From NCBI GenBank assembly GCA_001874305.1, contig MPCU01000003.1, positions 62,001 through 126,000 on the forward strand: 64,000 bases of DNA, given 5' to 3'. This document shows positions 12,706 through 60,770 of the stretch, piece after piece. Under the pieces are notes generated by a model. It saw only the letters and a list, made by a program, of their open reading frames with translations, did no database searches and was not told the DNA's origin. Position 1 is the first letter of the stretch, and every line of letters begins with the position of its first letter. A program made the position numbers and the translations under genes. The stretch is from Bacteriovorax sp. MedPE-SWde. GTDB lineage: Bacteria > Bdellovibrionota > Bacteriovoracia > Bacteriovoracales > Bacteriovoracaceae.

Positions 12706-12782
12706 TGGGGTGACCGATGGGGCTCGAACCCACGACAACCAGAATCACAATCTGGCGCTCTACCAACTGAACTACGATCACC
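12706..12782 (-). tRNA. tRNA-His (anticodon GTG)
   Basis: The minus strand folds into a full cloverleaf. The 7-bp acceptor stem is GTGATCG/CGGTCAC, the anticodon stem is CCAGA/TCTGG with loop TTGTGAT, and the T loop is GGGTTCGAGCCCC-like. The histidine-specific extra G(-1) (base 12782) faces C73 (base 12709), the identity element of tRNA-His. CCA is encoded (12708-12706). A strong promoter lies 20 bp upstream and a terminator follows, so this is a single-gene transcript. Confidence 0.96.
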
Positions 12783-54036: not shown

Positions 54037-55023
54037 TTAACCCTGCTTAGATAGAAACTCCTTTAAAGCTTCATCGTATTCAGATACAAGTCTCTCGACA
54101 ATTTCTTTAACAGGTTCAATTTTATTAATAAATTCTATCGATGGACCTGCACACCATACTGTTTTATAAGTAGCTGCAAATGCCGCATTTTCAACAAGCT
54201 TCATTCCCTTATAGTAAGTCAGCATCTTTACATACTTTTTTACACTTTTATTCTTCGCAAGAAGAGACTCAACTAGGTTTTGATCTGTACCAATCTTTTG
54301 AACATAAGGAGTGTTGATTACAGTACATGGAGTACCAGAAACTTTTGTTGATAGAACGATGTCTTTAGCTCCATATTTAACAACTGCCTCTTTGTACTCA
54401 TTGCTAACAGGGCTTTCTTCTGTTGCAATAAATGGACTCCCTATTGAAACCCCTTCGGCTCCAAGAGAAAGGACACTAAGTAGACCTGCTCCTGTTCCAA
54501 TCCCACCTGCTGAAATGACAGGAAGGTTGCAGTTCATTTTAAGCATCGGTACTAATAATGAAGCCGGTGTTGGACCAGCGTGTCCACCAGCTCCAGAGTT
54601 AACAGCAATTACTGCATCAGCTCCGAGAGATTCAACTTTTTGAGCATATTTGATATCTACAACATCACAAATTACTTTCGTACCATTTGGCTGACATTTT
54701 TTTATGACTTCTTCAGGGCTTCCAAGAGAAGTAATGATAAAATCTGGTGCATACTTAGCACAGATTTCAATTTGTTTTGGTAGGTGAATATTTGACTTAT
54801 TAACTATGAGATTAATTCCGAAAGGACCTTTACACTTTTCCTTAAGTTCCTTCATTGCCTCTTCGAATTCTTCTGGTGATCGCCAGTTTAATGCTGGAAC
54901 ACAACCCATGATACCGGACTCCGCGGCCTTAATAAGCATCTCGTTATTAGATACGAGGAACATAGGTGCCATGATAATAGGATACTTAATATTAAATGTT
55001 TCTGTTAGCCAACTTTTGATCAC
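54037..55023 (-). CDS. Nitronate monooxygenase-family FMN enzyme
   Basis: A 328-residue TIM-barrel FMN enzyme of the NMO/2-nitropropane dioxygenase/FabK group. Motifs: KYPIIMAPMF at the N-terminus, NSGAGGHAGP with the active-site His, PVISAGGIGTGAGLLSVLSLGAEGVSIGSPFIAT for FMN-phosphate binding, and a C-terminal NMO helix. It probably detoxifies nitronates, or acts as an enoyl-ACP reductase of FabK type; sequence does not settle it. AAGGAG precedes ATG 55023. It is the first gene of the three-gene leftward operon. Confidence 0.88.
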   Translation of the reverse strand: MIKSWLTETFNIKYPIIMAPMFLVSNNEMLIKAAESGIMGCVPALNWRSPEEFEEAMKELKEKCKGPFGINLIVNKSNIHLPKQIEICAKYAPDFIITSLGSPEEVIKKCQPNGTKVICDVVDIKYAQKVESLGADAVIAVNSGAGGHAGPTPASLLVPMLKMNCNLPVISAGGIGTGAGLLSVLSLGAEGVSIGSPFIATEESPVSNEYKEAVVKYGAKDIVLSTKVSGTPCTVINTPYVQKIGTDQNLVESLLAKNKSVKKYVKMLTYYKGMKLVENAAFAATYKTVWCAGPSIEFINKIEPVKEIVERLVSEYDEALKEFLSKQG

Positions 55024-55145: not shown

Positions 55146-57779
55146 ATGGCAAAAGAACTATCGGCATTACCTGATTTCGAAGAAATTAAGGGCCAAATCG
55201 AAACAGAAAGAAAATCAATTATCAAAGTTAATAACTTCTCTGAAGAGGAAGGTTATGTAAGATCCTCAGAGGATGCATTACTAATCTTAGACTTTCTACA
55301 AGAAACATTAACACCTCTTTGGACAGTATTTGAAGAACACCCATCTTTGATGAAGTTCTTCTCTGAAGAGTACACAGCGTTTAATGCTCTACTCGCAAGA
55401 GAGACTGTCCTTGAAATTCTCTTTTTAGATGATTGTTTAATTCCTGAAAAGGAAATGTTCTTCTTTGGCCAAGACGGTGGGATTAGCACAAAGATTTTAG
55501 ATATTCATAAAAGTGGTTTAATAAGATGGGTTAACCAAAAAAAGGATAACCATGAATTGACTCAGACTTTTATCAAAGATGGAGATATCTTTGACTCTAA
55601 GATTGCGGAGTTAAAGTGTCAGTGTGTGAAATGTACTGCTGATTATAGAGCAAAACTTAGAGATGCTGTATTTGATATGAGTATTGCCATCATTGATGGT
55701 GCAGAAGATAAAATTATTGAAAACCTCACTGCTGGTGTTGAAGTTGTATCTGACATTTTTCATAAGATGCAAAAAGAGCTTGATAAGAACTTCTATCGAG
55801 TGAGATACCGCTTAAAGAGATCATCTCTAAATAGATTAGAGAATCAAATAAAAGGAATCTTAAAAGAAAGGTTCTGTTATCCAGGTAAGTTGGCAATGGA
55901 GTATCGTCCACAACTTCAAATGGTATTTGATCAGTTTCTAAGTGATAATGAATACAATACTGATCTTATAAATGATCAAGAGTATGACAAATTCTTATCG
56001 ACACTTTCGACTAATATTTGGAAGCATAATAGGTTTCTTGAGCGTGAGTTTAAGAAATTTGTAAAATCTATAGTAATTCTTAAAAAGAAAGATGTTTCTT
56101 CAAAAATTCTTCAAGAGTACCTTGGAGAGTTCTGGGTTCATTCAACTGCTAGAGATATAAAGAGAAAGATCATATATCACATGGGTCCTACCAACTCGGG
56201 AAAGACCTATCATGCAATCGAAGGATTATCTAAGGCAAAGAATGGGTGTTACTTAGCGCCTCTTAGGCTACTTGCTGCTGAGCTTTACGATACTCTAAAT
56301 TCAAAAGGTTGTGTAACTACACTTCTTACAGGTGAAGAAGTTATTGAGAAGGAAGGATCAACTCACTACTCATCTACAATTGAAATGGCTCGATTTGGTG
56401 AGTTCTTTGACTGTTGTGTAATTGATGAGATTCAAATGATTACTGATAAGCAAAGAGGTTGGGCCTGGACAAGGGCCCTAGTAAATATATTTGCTGATGA
56501 GATACATCTTTGTGGAGATGCATCGGCACTTGATCTAGTAAAAGTTATTGTCGATTTATGTGGCGATGAACTTGAGATAAAAGAATATACTCGAATGACA
56601 GAATTAACTGTTCTGCCAAAGAAAATTGTTCTAGCTGATTTAAACAAAAATGATGCTCTTATCGTTTTCTCTCGAAGAAATGCTCTAAGATATAAGAGAG
56701 ACCTTGAGAGAATTGGATACTCTGTTTCAATTGTCTATGGGAGATTGTCTCCTGAAGTTAGAAGAGAACAGGCCCGTAAATTTGATCAAGGGGAAACAGA
56801 TATAATCGTTTCTACTGATGCAATTGCTATGGGAATGAATCTTCCTATTAAAAGAATTGTTTTTTCAACACTTTCAAAGTTCTACAATAATCAAGAACAT
56901 GAAATTACAATGAGTGAGATCAAGCAAATTGCTGGTCGAGCTGGTCGCTATCAAAGGTTTCCGGAAGGAACTGTAACTTGTCTTCAAAAAGTTGATGATG
57001 GGATTGAAAGAGTCCGTGATAATTTATATGGGACGCTTGATCAAAGTACACAGTGTATGGTTGGTCCAGATTTAGACATTTTTAACCAAGTTAATAATGC
57101 TCTGGTTTCTAATAATCTACCAAAGCTAAAGTTATCTGAGTTCCTTAGGTTATTTAACACTATGATCTTTAAGAAACCTTTCTATTGTGTAGATATGAAG
57201 GAAATGATCGAGTTAGCAGAAATAGTTGAAGACGCTGATCCAAAAGGTGAGCTGTCCGATGCTGAAATATTTGGTTATGCCTGTGCTCCTGTTAATTTAG
57301 GTCTATTAGAGCATGTACAGTATTACATGTGGATACTTAATAAGTATGTAAGTGGCGAAGGTATTGCCAATGAGCCAATTGACTATGATTCAAATGATAT
57401 AGACTATCTTGAAACATCAATTAAGTGTGTCGAATTATATCAGTGGCTTTCAAGACACTTTAATAATAAGAATTTTCACTTTGATGACTATACTCTTCAT
57501 AACAATAAACAGCTTGCCATTGATAAACTGAATACGCTCTTGTCAGATAAAATTGTTCCGACTTGTAGTAGCTGTGGCTGTAAGCTTCCTGAAACATCGA
57601 GGTTTCCTATCTGTGAAGAGTGTTTTGAGAAAAGAAAAACACAAAGACGTCGTCCGCGTTATGATAAAAAGAAAGGTGACGGTAAAGGCAGTCGATCTGG
57701 TAAAGATGGTGGTAATCGCCGATTTGCAGGAAAGAAGAAAGTATCTAGAAAAAGAAAATCTAATACATCTAAAAAATAA
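55146..57779 (+). CDS. SUV3-like (SUPV3L1/Suv3) ATP-dependent RNA helicase with N- and C-terminal extensions
   Basis: An 877-residue SF2 helicase. The helicase core (about residues 335-690) carries the Suv3 signatures: motif I GPTNSGKTYHA, motif Ia LAPLRLLAAELYD, TGEE, II VIDEIQMI, III-type GDASALD, IV DALIVFSRR, V ATDAIAMGMNLPI-like STDAIAMGMNLPIKRI and VI QIAGRAGRY. In mitochondria Suv3 unwinds RNA for PNPase-driven decay; bacterial members are rare and little studied. The 340-residue N-terminus is unassigned, with a CQCVKC cluster near 157-162. Residues about 806-825 hold a zinc-ribbon-like cluster (CSSCGCK...ICEEC) and the last 50 residues are Lys/Arg/Gly-rich. No clear SD. The next gene starts in the stop codon (TAATG). 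Confidence 0.85.
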   Translation: MAKELSALPDFEEIKGQIETERKSIIKVNNFSEEEGYVRSSEDALLILDFLQETLTPLWTVFEEHPSLMKFFSEEYTAFNALLARETVLEILFLDDCLIPEKEMFFFGQDGGISTKILDIHKSGLIRWVNQKKDNHELTQTFIKDGDIFDSKIAELKCQCVKCTADYRAKLRDAVFDMSIAIIDGAEDKIIENLTAGVEVVSDIFHKMQKELDKNFYRVRYRLKRSSLNRLENQIKGILKERFCYPGKLAMEYRPQLQMVFDQFLSDNEYNTDLINDQEYDKFLSTLSTNIWKHNRFLEREFKKFVKSIVILKKKDVSSKILQEYLGEFWVHSTARDIKRKIIYHMGPTNSGKTYHAIEGLSKAKNGCYLAPLRLLAAELYDTLNSKGCVTTLLTGEEVIEKEGSTHYSSTIEMARFGEFFDCCVIDEIQMITDKQRGWAWTRALVNIFADEIHLCGDASALDLVKVIVDLCGDELEIKEYTRMTELTVLPKKIVLADLNKNDALIVFSRRNALRYKRDLERIGYSVSIVYGRLSPEVRREQARKFDQGETDIIVSTDAIAMGMNLPIKRIVFSTLSKFYNNQEHEITMSEIKQIAGRAGRYQRFPEGTVTCLQKVDDGIERVRDNLYGTLDQSTQCMVGPDLDIFNQVNNALVSNNLPKLKLSEFLRLFNTMIFKKPFYCVDMKEMIELAEIVEDADPKGELSDAEIFGYACAPVNLGLLEHVQYYMWILNKYVSGEGIANEPIDYDSNDIDYLETSIKCVELYQWLSRHFNNKNFHFDDYTLHNNKQLAIDKLNTLLSDKIVPTCSSCGCKLPETSRFPICEECFEKRKTQRRRPRYDKKKGDGKGSRSGKDGGNRRFAGKKKVSRKRKSNTSKK

Positions 57780-58600
57780 TGGATATTATTGAATATGCTA
57801 AAACACTATTACTGTCTGGTAAGTTAGAAGATAAACTTCTAGATCCAGCAGTAATAGAAAGTTATAGCGGATCTTGTATAGATAATGATCTGAAACATAT
57901 GAAGCCAAAAAGAGAAGATAAAATAATCTTCTCTGATCAACAATTAAAGTTCCCCAAAAAAAGTACCTTTCACCTTGACGAGAGAAAAGCTCTTGCTATG
58001 CATTTTTTTGCTAACCACGAACTCCTCGCTATAGAGATGATGGCGGCAGCTCTTTTATACATTCCTGTAGAGGATGAATATAGTAAAAGGGTTCGAACAG
58101 GGCTAGTTAAAACAATTCAAGATGAACAGAAACATTTTAAAATGTACGTTAATAGAATAAATGAGTTTGGAATTGAGTTTGGTGATTTTCCTGTAAATGA
58201 TTACTTTTGGCGACAAATGCAAAAAGTAAAAACTTATGATGAATACTTCAGTGTTATGGCCCTAACTTTTGAAGCCGCAAACTTAGACTTTGCTAAGTAC
58301 TATGGTGAAATATTTAAGAGTGTTGATGATGATAAGTCATCTAAAATAATGGACGTTGTCTATCAGGATGAGATTTCGCATGTTGCATTTGGAGTTTACT
58401 GGTTGAATCAGTGGCGAAATGAAAAGTCCCTCTGGAATTACTATAAAGAGAGCTTACCTGATCTCTTAACGCCTGCAAGGTCAAAAGGTATATCTTTTGA
58501 TAGTGAAGGGAGATTCAAATCAGGAATGGATCAGGATTTTGTAGATAAAGTTAAAGACTATAAAGATGAGTTCATCGTTACAAATCGAAAAGAGTGGTGA
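57779..58600 (+). CDS. DUF455 ferritin-like diiron protein
   Basis: A 273-residue helical protein of the DUF455/ferritin-like superfamily, distantly related to MiaE-type hydroxylases. A complete carboxylate diiron set is visible: Glu81 or Glu86 (HELLAIE), Glu116-x-x-His119 (DEQKH), Glu165 (TFEAANLD) and Glu198-x-x-His201 (DEISH). It therefore probably binds two irons and activates oxygen or peroxide. Its ATG overlaps the SUV3-like stop by one base, and the ATP-grasp-like gene starts three bases after its stop, so all three form one operon. The substrate is unknown; the neighbouring RNA helicase makes an RNA-linked role conceivable. Confidence 0.78.
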   Translation: MDIIEYAKTLLLSGKLEDKLLDPAVIESYSGSCIDNDLKHMKPKREDKIIFSDQQLKFPKKSTFHLDERKALAMHFFANHELLAIEMMAAALLYIPVEDEYSKRVRTGLVKTIQDEQKHFKMYVNRINEFGIEFGDFPVNDYFWRQMQKVKTYDEYFSVMALTFEAANLDFAKYYGEIFKSVDDDKSSKIMDVVYQDEISHVAFGVYWLNQWRNEKSLWNYYKESLPDLLTPARSKGISFDSEGRFKSGMDQDFVDKVKDYKDEFIVTNRKEW

Positions 58601-58603
58601 TTA

Positions 58604-59581
58604 ATGAGCTTTAGAGTTAATCTCGACTTTGATCAGGCACTACAGAAAAATAATCCACGTTATGAAAATCCAAGAATCAATAAGGCCTTCGAATATATCT
58701 TTATTCTTCTTAACGAATCTGAAGAGAATGAACTTTATAATTACAATGACTATGAAGAAAGTTATTTAACTTACTTGAGTGCAAAAGGCTTCGTTATTCC
58801 CCGCTTTAATAAGGGTGGGAAATATTCAAATTGGTGGGGTAATACTGATGAGTTTGAACTTGGTCGTAAGTTAAACTCTAAGATTGAAACTTCTTTATTC
58901 GCTCATAATAATGATCTCTGTCCGTCTGGATTGACTATTATTAATAATGAAGCCGAGTTAGTTAGCGCTACTGATTCAGATGAATCAACTAGGTTTTATT
59001 ACCGTTCTGAATATGGGTTCTCAGGAATGGGGAATAAGGTAATTGAAGTTAATAAGAAATACTCTCTTCGCTATCCAGGAACACTAGTCAATTATCTAAA
59101 TAAAGAACTTAGCTTTGGTATTACTGTTGATCTTAAAACCATGAAGTACTTTATTTGTGAGAATACTATTGATGATAGAGGAACATTTTGTGGCGGACGA
59201 ATTATAGATGAAACTTTCTTAGCAAGCTTATTAGGTATAACGAGAGAGAAATTCATAGAAGAGCTTTTAGTCGTTTTTGAGAAGATTCGTAGACAATACG
59301 GACCATTAAAGATTCAGTTTGATTCTATGATCTATAAAGAAGAAAGCATTAATAAGTGGTATAAGCTTGTTGAAATAAACTATAGAAGAACAATGGCCGA
59401 AGTCATATATCAATTACACTCCAAGCAAGGACGTGGGAAGTGGGTAATTGAGAAAAATATATACACTGATAAGTCTATCTCTGAGTTAGAGACTATATTA
59501 GAAAAACAAAGTAAGAAGAATATTGTTGTTACTTCTCCTTCAGATGCGCCGCTTTTAAGCTACTACCAAACCGAAAAGTAG
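58604..59581 (+). CDS. ATP-grasp-like protein, function unknown
   Basis: A 325-residue protein with ATP-grasp hallmarks, though not all. A glycine-rich flap segment RFYYRSEYGFSGMGN (residues about 128-143) resembles the ATP-binding K/R-x-x-x-G-x-S-G-x-G loop. A later acidic/metal segment KLVEINYRRTMAEV (about 274-287) resembles ExNxR. The N-terminal region contains SAKGFVIPRFNKGG and SNWWGNTDE. The reaction could be formation of a carboxylate-amine or peptide bond. Proteins of this sort occur next to DUF455 genes in my recollection, but I cannot verify that here. It is the last gene of the SUV3-like operon. Confidence 0.5.
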   Translation: MSFRVNLDFDQALQKNNPRYENPRINKAFEYIFILLNESEENELYNYNDYEESYLTYLSAKGFVIPRFNKGGKYSNWWGNTDEFELGRKLNSKIETSLFAHNNDLCPSGLTIINNEAELVSATDSDESTRFYYRSEYGFSGMGNKVIEVNKKYSLRYPGTLVNYLNKELSFGITVDLKTMKYFICENTIDDRGTFCGGRIIDETFLASLLGITREKFIEELLVVFEKIRRQYGPLKIQFDSMIYKEESINKWYKLVEINYRRTMAEVIYQLHSKQGRGKWVIEKNIYTDKSISELETILEKQSKKNIVVTSPSDAPLLSYYQTEK

Positions 59582-59732: not shown

Positions 59733-60770
59733 ATGATCGGAAAACTTCTCGATCAAATTAAAGATAAGGTCACACCTCTGAAGAAGAAATTCTCCAAGGA
59801 TTCTGATGATGAATATGAAGAGTATGAAGATGATGAAGAAGAGGATGATATAGATTCAGATGATAATACTGAACAGGTAGAAATGCCCGATCTTGATGAT
59901 GAAGAGGAAGATGATGACAGCGAAGATGACTCTGGCGATGAAGATGATGAAGAAGATGAAGATGAAGACGACGACGACGACGATGAAGATGATGACGACG
60001 ATGACGATGAAGCTGCGGCTAAAGCAAAGAAGAAAAAACTAATACAATTAGTTCTCATTCTGGCCATTGGTTATTTAGCTATTGATACATTCTTCTTAGG
60101 CGAACCTGAAAATACAGTACCAGAAGTTAAACAGGTTAAAAGGAAAAGACCTAAGAGAAGAAAACCTCGTAGAGCAAAGAAGAAAGTTGTCGAGGCAAAA
60201 AAAGTAGATACAGCTAAGAAGGTTGAAACGAAAGTTGAGCCAGCAAAAGAAGTTGTAAAAAAAGAAGAACCAAAGAGGATTGAGCCAAAACCAGAACCTA
60301 TTGTAGAAAAAAAGATAGAGAAGACTAAAGAAAAGCCAGTCCCTGAAGTTAAAAAGCCTTCAGCTCAACCTGTTGTAAAAGAAGAAGTGATTAGCGCAGA
60401 AGAGAAAATGAATGTGGATCCAATGTCATCATTAAATTCTAACAAAAAAACACAGGAATCTTTGGACAAACAATTGAGTAAAATAATCGAGAAAGTAGAG
60501 GATGTAAAAGAAGTAAAAAAACTTGAGTATTCCTCTCCTCCTAATTATGAAAACTTTGGTAAATCACTTGTCTATAATTGTAAGGGAAAACACTGGGCCT
60601 GTGTAGATAAGAAGGCACACTTCCAATGTTTAAATAACCTTAATTGGTCAAAGCAGAATTCTAAGAATCCTGAGTGTGTGACATCCAAAATCATGGCCAC
60701 TCCAAGTGATTGTAGAGTGATGCAACTATATAATATTAATACGGTTATTGAAGTACCTGATTGTAAATAA
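59733..60770 (+). CDS. Single-pass membrane protein with extreme acidic N-terminus and Lys/Pro-rich periplasmic linker
   Basis: A 345-residue protein. Residues 23-93 are almost only Asp and Glu. A basic KAKKKK anchor and one membrane helix (103-122) follow, then a Lys/Arg/Pro/Val/Glu-rich linker (about 128-230, in TonB-like style) and a C-terminal domain with six cysteines (YNCKGKHWACVDK...HFQC...PEC...SDC...PDC). The topology would put the acidic tail in the cytoplasm and the cysteine domain outside. AAGGGAG precedes ATG 59733. It sits 89 bp before cheA. The acidic tract is made of GAY/GAR codons and its opposite strand reads as poly-Ser, which is an artefact. Confidence 0.7.
   Translation: MIGKLLDQIKDKVTPLKKKFSKDSDDEYEEYEDDEEEDDIDSDDNTEQVEMPDLDDEEEDDDSEDDSGDEDDEEDEDEDDDDDDEDDDDDDDEAAAKAKKKKLIQLVLILAIGYLAIDTFFLGEPENTVPEVKQVKRKRPKRRKPRRAKKKVVEAKKVDTAKKVETKVEPAKEVVKKEEPKRIEPKPEPIVEKKIEKTKEKPVPEVKKPSAQPVVKEEVISAEEKMNVDPMSSLNSNKKTQESLDKQLSKIIEKVEDVKEVKKLEYSSPPNYENFGKSLVYNCKGKHWACVDKKAHFQCLNNLNWSKQNSKNPECVTSKIMATPSDCRVMQLYNINTVIEVPDCK

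Follow-up and report, generated by a model that had tools for sequence, protein, structure and literature searches.

Diiron enzymes of the ferritin type activate O2, ATP-grasp ligases proceed by way of an acyl-phosphate that they join to an amine, and BesC and BesA, a diiron protein and an ATP-grasp ligase, belong to one pathway. At least 25 clusters place a diiron oxidase of the heme-oxygenase-like (HDO) fold next to an ATP-grasp amino-acid ligase, the studied case being that of mangotoxin, MboA with MboC and MboD (PMC13185094). The locus analysed here, at positions 55146-59581 of a DNA stretch of 64,000 nucleotides (the window), encodes a DUF455 protein next to an ATP-grasp protein and may share with mangotoxin and BesC/BesA the logic of encoding an O2-activating diiron protein together with an amino-acid ligase of the ATP-grasp type. 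It departs from these systems in that their oxidases have the HDO fold whereas DUF455 is predicted to be a ferritin-type bundle, and in that many lineages fuse DUF455 to ATP-grasp and whole families retain both, with no other shared cluster genes seen. The original prediction had joined both proteins with an upstream Suv3-type helicase in a three-gene RNA system; we favour instead, with moderate confidence, the explanation that DUF455 and ATP-grasp are two halves of one oxygenase-ligase enzyme system and that the helicase is a mere neighbour. The literature searched yielded no earlier description of a DUF455/ATP-grasp fusion and no function for either partnered or solo DUF455.

Organisation of the locus and the Suv3-type helicase

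The three genes lie head to tail on the (+) strand and encode a Suv3-type RNA helicase (55146..57779, ORF of 877 aa), a DUF455 ferritin-type diiron protein of the FANHELLAIE-motif subfamily (57779..58600, 273 aa) and an ATP-grasp protein resembling amino-acid/peptide ligases (58604..59581, 325 aa), all three ORFs being truly coding at a level far beyond chance. When the letters are read directly, the helicase/DUF455 junction is TAATG at 57777-57781, a 1-base overlap, and the DUF455/ATP-grasp junction is TGA-TTA-ATG at 58598-58606, a 3-bp gap, which confirms the stop/start overlap and the spacing first described for this operon. Promoter and terminator scans at the locus performed no better than chance, and no structured RNA was found there, the only Rfam match at gathering thresholds being a tRNA at 12709-12781. 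A defence system was considered and rejected, as PADLOC returned generic helicase matches only and left DUF455 and ATP-grasp without a match. Downstream, the gene at 59733-60770, a neighbour conserved in the window's family, encodes a protein with a very acidic stretch at the N-terminus as well as a hydrophobic segment and a basic stretch. In most family genomes read, a class II aldolase-like gene (L218:3101-3709 and its equivalents) faces the ATP-grasp gene; the copy of genome G012 had no match in the window's genome. G012 also carries, at L207:4197-6182 and adjoining a glutathione synthetase gene, a gene whose product combines an N-formylglutamate amidohydrolase domain with a MATCAP (tyrosine carboxypeptidase-like) domain.

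The assignment of the first protein to the SUV3 type held, as the motifs GPTNSGKT (residues 347-354), VIDEIQM (425-431) and QIAGRAGRY (594-602) are present, Pfam DEXQc_Suv3 scores 207 bits (cut-off 27) and residues 310-617 match SUPV3L1 chains at E 4e-71. The DEXQ core spans residues 332-481 and the helicase C domain residues 498-602; SUV3_C scored 14.9 bits (cut-off 27) and covered residues 754-775 only. Relative to the mitochondrial helicase SUPV3L1/Suv3, with which it has this core in common, the window protein adds a long N-terminal region of about 330 residues, which had been noted before, is without a Pfam match and carries an invariant CxCxxC (158-163), and it also adds a Cys4 ribbon (807-826) and a basic tail. 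The ribbon agrees with the zinc-ribbon-like C-terminus predicted for the window protein, and is missing from two divergent relatives.

The DUF455 and ATP-grasp proteins

The second protein scores 167.8 bits against Pfam PF04305 (cut-off 34.3), a family found in bacteria, with an anemone listed as well. Its AlphaFold model (pLDDT 93.9) has four long helices in a bundle, and an alignment of 42 sequences shows the seven residues of the diiron set, E81/E86, E116xxH119, E165 and E198xxH201, to be invariant, so that the earlier description as a ferritin-like protein with a full diiron set stands, and the protein is modelled as a ferritin-type diiron bundle with a complete putative ligand set. Among its top structural matches aldehyde-deformylating oxygenase could be aligned over the greatest length (about 186-190 residues, at Z about 14), and bacterioferritin and Dps chains scored Z about 14-15 over about 140-150 residues; for a helical bundle a Z of about 14 is close to what a common arrangement gives and points to the fold of the DUF455 model, not to its function. 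MiaE is a diiron protein hydroxylating a tRNA base, and a MiaE-type tRNA hydroxylase was absent among the DUF455 structural matches listed, an absence that carries no weight. A ferritin-type diiron bundle is common to DUF455 and aldehyde-deformylating oxygenase, and Pfam Ald_deCOase scores 28.8 bits, just over its cut-off of 28; however, the NCBIfam equivalog TIGR04059 scores 26.9 bits, below its cut-off of 222.65, and no acyl-ACP reductase partner was present among the genes read around DUF455. As ferritin-like bundles also serve iron storage or redox roles, which counts against an oxygenase-ligase pair, DUF455 could be an iron-storage or peroxide-scavenging protein with ATP-grasp merely its operon neighbour. 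We regard this as very improbable: bacterioferritin and Dps do score level with the oxygenases, but the aldehyde decarbonylase model that DUF455 just passes describes an enzyme family, and the pairing and fusion data described below also speak against it.

The third protein gave no hit to Pfam or NCBIfam, yet its AlphaFold model is that of a full ATP-grasp ligase (mean pLDDT 95.8), and a structural search with this model returned 768 chains at Z >=8, of which the best 50 were all ATP-grasp enzymes. The best match was 3wvr, which we take to be PGM1, the pheganomycin peptide ligase (Z 22.1, rmsd 3.5, 303 residues), followed by the Streptomyces ATP-grasp peptide ligase 8ynd (21.8), BesA (21.8) and SAOUHSC_02373, presumably LdmS, an L-Asp-L-Met ligase (19.3), with generic ATP-grasp enzymes trailing at Z 17.1 and below. 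PGM1 couples a nonproteinogenic amino acid with a core peptide (PMC8939145). The fold is thus common to PGM1, 8ynd and LdmS over the whole chain (Z 19-22), although the identity of the window protein to them is only about 9-14%. The label ATP-grasp-like was therefore right, with model and conserved residues in agreement, and can be narrowed on account of the nearest folds to the amino-acid/peptide ligase branch of PGM1, BesA and LdmS, a placement by closest resemblance of the predicted structure. A sequence trace of LdmS is detectable in one of the fused homologues described below (E 0.003, 16.3 bits) and in a Bacteroidota homologue (E 8e-8, 31.4 bits); these scores lie far below the cut-off of 475 bits of the LdmS equivalog NF047900, to which the window protein itself has no hit. 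In an alignment of 30 relatives K93, the FSGxG loop, D240, E257-x-N259 and R261 are invariant or nearly so, the corresponding motifs in the window protein being LNSK (90-93), R134 with its Gly loop (134-143), D240 and E257-x-N259-x-R261. The position of the second ATP-binding lysine, occupied by Lys in most relatives, is Arg134 in the window protein, which tells against an oxygenase-ligase pair. The ATP-grasp protein is also the fastest evolving of the three, its same-genus identity being 33-37%, where DUF455 reaches 63-70% and the helicase 70-72%.

Pairing and fusion of DUF455 and ATP-grasp

The neighbourhood survey covered 116 genomes of the window's order, all of one family and from 46 genera; its counts come from a single phylum and from draft genomes of uneven completeness. 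DUF455 was found in 92 of the 116 genomes and the ATP-grasp gene in at least 82 by a single-sequence search, with more recovered by profile, and when both searches were combined at least 89 of the 92 DUF455 genomes also carried the ATP-grasp gene. This last figure is a lower bound because G099, scored as lacking the gene, encodes a divergent copy at L209:2376-3257. The ATP-grasp gene follows DUF455 at a distance of <=60 bp in 84 of the 89 genomes (median 8). Outside the window's family most matches to the ATP-grasp profile among 291 genomes of the phylum sit in the same long frame as DUF455, and this fusion was verified in at least 12 genomes from seven other families of Bdellovibrionota (G129, G141, G172, G194, G195, G196, G206, G219, G236, G238, G257 and G264), nine of which were read out and aligned across both window proteins; an example is the 687-aa protein of G257 (L181:3586-5646). 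The split ATP-grasp protein and the C-terminal half of the fusions match in a profile-profile comparison with a probability of 99.7 (E 3e-26, 332 columns). Co-occurrence, close spacing and gene fusion together provide very strong evidence that DUF455 and ATP-grasp belong together, and they weigh against DUF455 as an iron store, as does the finding that the partnered form has a subfamily of its own: while the score over the PF04305 cut-off and the full diiron ligands are shared features of DUF455, in a tree rooted at its midpoint the ATP-grasp-partnered subfamily is separated from the solo DUF455 of Bdellovibrionaceae and others with a support of 100/100. The split DUF455 of the window's family (100/99) nests among the fusions in this tree, so the simplest account is that one chain has probably been split into two genes in the window's family. 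In G262 (L190:3423-5631) the fusion reads in two overlapping frames of 453 and 477 aa, representing either an assembly error or a real split.

A contig search with three fusion C-termini identified four loci (two in Oligoflexia, one in Bdellovibrionales and one listed as 'bacterium'), and no homologue was found in viral contigs. Members of the ATP-grasp family also occur with other partners: G083 encodes an 879-aa fusion to a NodU-like carbamoyltransferase (L205:3838-6474) and is the only genome of the window's family with an ATP-grasp family member and no DUF455, G004 encodes an unfused member with a NodU-like carbamoyltransferase and an adjoining glycosyltransferase (L198:3634-6278), and standalone homologues are present in Bacteroidota, where the records are listed as plasmids (E 1e-14, with 58% of a fusion covered). 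These members without DUF455 count against the oxygenase-ligase pair, as they indicate that the ligase family extends beyond the pair and that the ligase can function where no oxygenase is present.

If DUF455 and ATP-grasp are indeed two halves of one system, DUF455 would activate O2 and oxidise a substrate that is amino-acid-like or a peptide, the ATP-grasp half would use ATP to turn a carboxylate into an acyl-phosphate and join it to an amine, with ligation placed before or after the oxidation, and the product might be an oxidised amide or short peptide, or else a protein with a modified end. The fusion neighbours vary by family, with a glutathione synthetase in f23, a VWA protein in f12 and MscL in f22. 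The neighbourhoods read showed no transporter or regulator genes in common, and no recurring small gene of the graspetide precursor kind was noticed beside the pair in gene lists that started at 80-90 aa. As the pair is kept broadly and without shared cluster genes, a core metabolite or protein modification would fit better than a sporadic antibiotic. One sub-case of this oxygenase-ligase explanation is that the product of the pair is a small redox or thiol metabolite, akin to glutathione-type dipeptides, which protects or buffers the cell. The nearest ATP-grasp folds are dipeptide or peptide ligases, the fusion adjoins glutathione synthetase in two f23 genomes, and the pair is as widespread as a core function would be, with no transporter or regulator in common, all of which would suit such a role; the glutathione synthetase neighbour is nevertheless confined to one family while others differ, and we consider this sub-case unlikely.

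Relationship of the helicase to the pair

The helicase was found in 113 of the 116 genomes of the window's family and lies <=400 bp from DUF455 in 81 of the 92 DUF455 genomes, a proximity that favours a three-gene RNA system in which the helicase would open RNA, DUF455 would hydroxylate a base and ATP-grasp would ligate an amino acid to the base or to a ribosomal protein. Against this, 18 genomes of the family possess the helicase without a DUF455 match, and an opposite-strand gene intervenes between helicase and DUF455 in G004, G067, G030 and G016. A control gene encoding nitronate monooxygenase (54037-55023), which is on the opposite strand and thus not in an operon with the helicase, was situated <=5 kb from the helicase in 72 of the 80 genomes with a listed orthologue. 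Since neighbourhoods are, as this control shows, generally conserved in the window's family, adjacency to the helicase says little about joint work. Strong Suv3 matches outside the family were obtained for G122 and G211 only, the weaker ones (E 1e-5 to 1e-11) covering part of the domain and looking like other helicases, and a strong Suv3 match was absent from all 12 genomes with a verified fusion, which come from seven families and do not include G211. Among 55 genomes of the order of G211, 16 carried all or a large portion of the fusion and two a Suv3 helicase, with both occurring only in G211, where, at L217:1-3285, the fusion (cut by the contig end) lies on a 4-kb contig 27 bp from the Suv3 gene in divergent orientation. 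G211, from another family than the window, is the best remaining evidence for the helicase link and keeps the three-gene explanation alive. That explanation also draws on pseudouridine synthases near the f23 fusion (in G257, besides the glutathione synthetase) and near the solo DUF455 of Bdellovibrionaceae, the latter also being found near YebC; no RNA enzyme, however, was among the ATP-grasp structural matches listed.

We therefore judge a three-gene RNA system improbable. The part of the original prediction that survives is the DUF455/ATP-grasp unit, retained in at least 89 of 92 genomes and as fusions; these two genes belong together, and the helicase is the looser neighbour. Conservation of all three genes together across lineages was contradicted by the survey, in which the pair occurs without the helicase in seven families and G211 is the sole recurrence seen outside the window's family. 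The link between the pair and the helicase, and hence an RNA-processing system, remains weak, and the helicase appears to be a mostly independent neighbour, a core RNA helicase of the window's family whose place beside the pair is coincidental. This result corrects the reading that tied the DUF455/ATP-grasp pair to RNA decay and illustrates that neighbourhood conservation by itself misleads in the window's family.

Returning to the oxygenase-ligase explanation, we tentatively propose, as a possibility with somewhat less than an even chance, that partnered DUF455 is the first ferritin-type diiron oxygenase to form one machine with an ATP-grasp amino-acid ligase, making in Bdellovibrionota a widely kept and as yet unseen oxidised peptide-like cofactor or protein-end modification. 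That DUF455 is fused to an ATP-grasp ligase hints directly at its substrate class and makes a vague operon idea testable on one soluble protein; if the proposal is true, DUF455 would gain its first testable chemistry.
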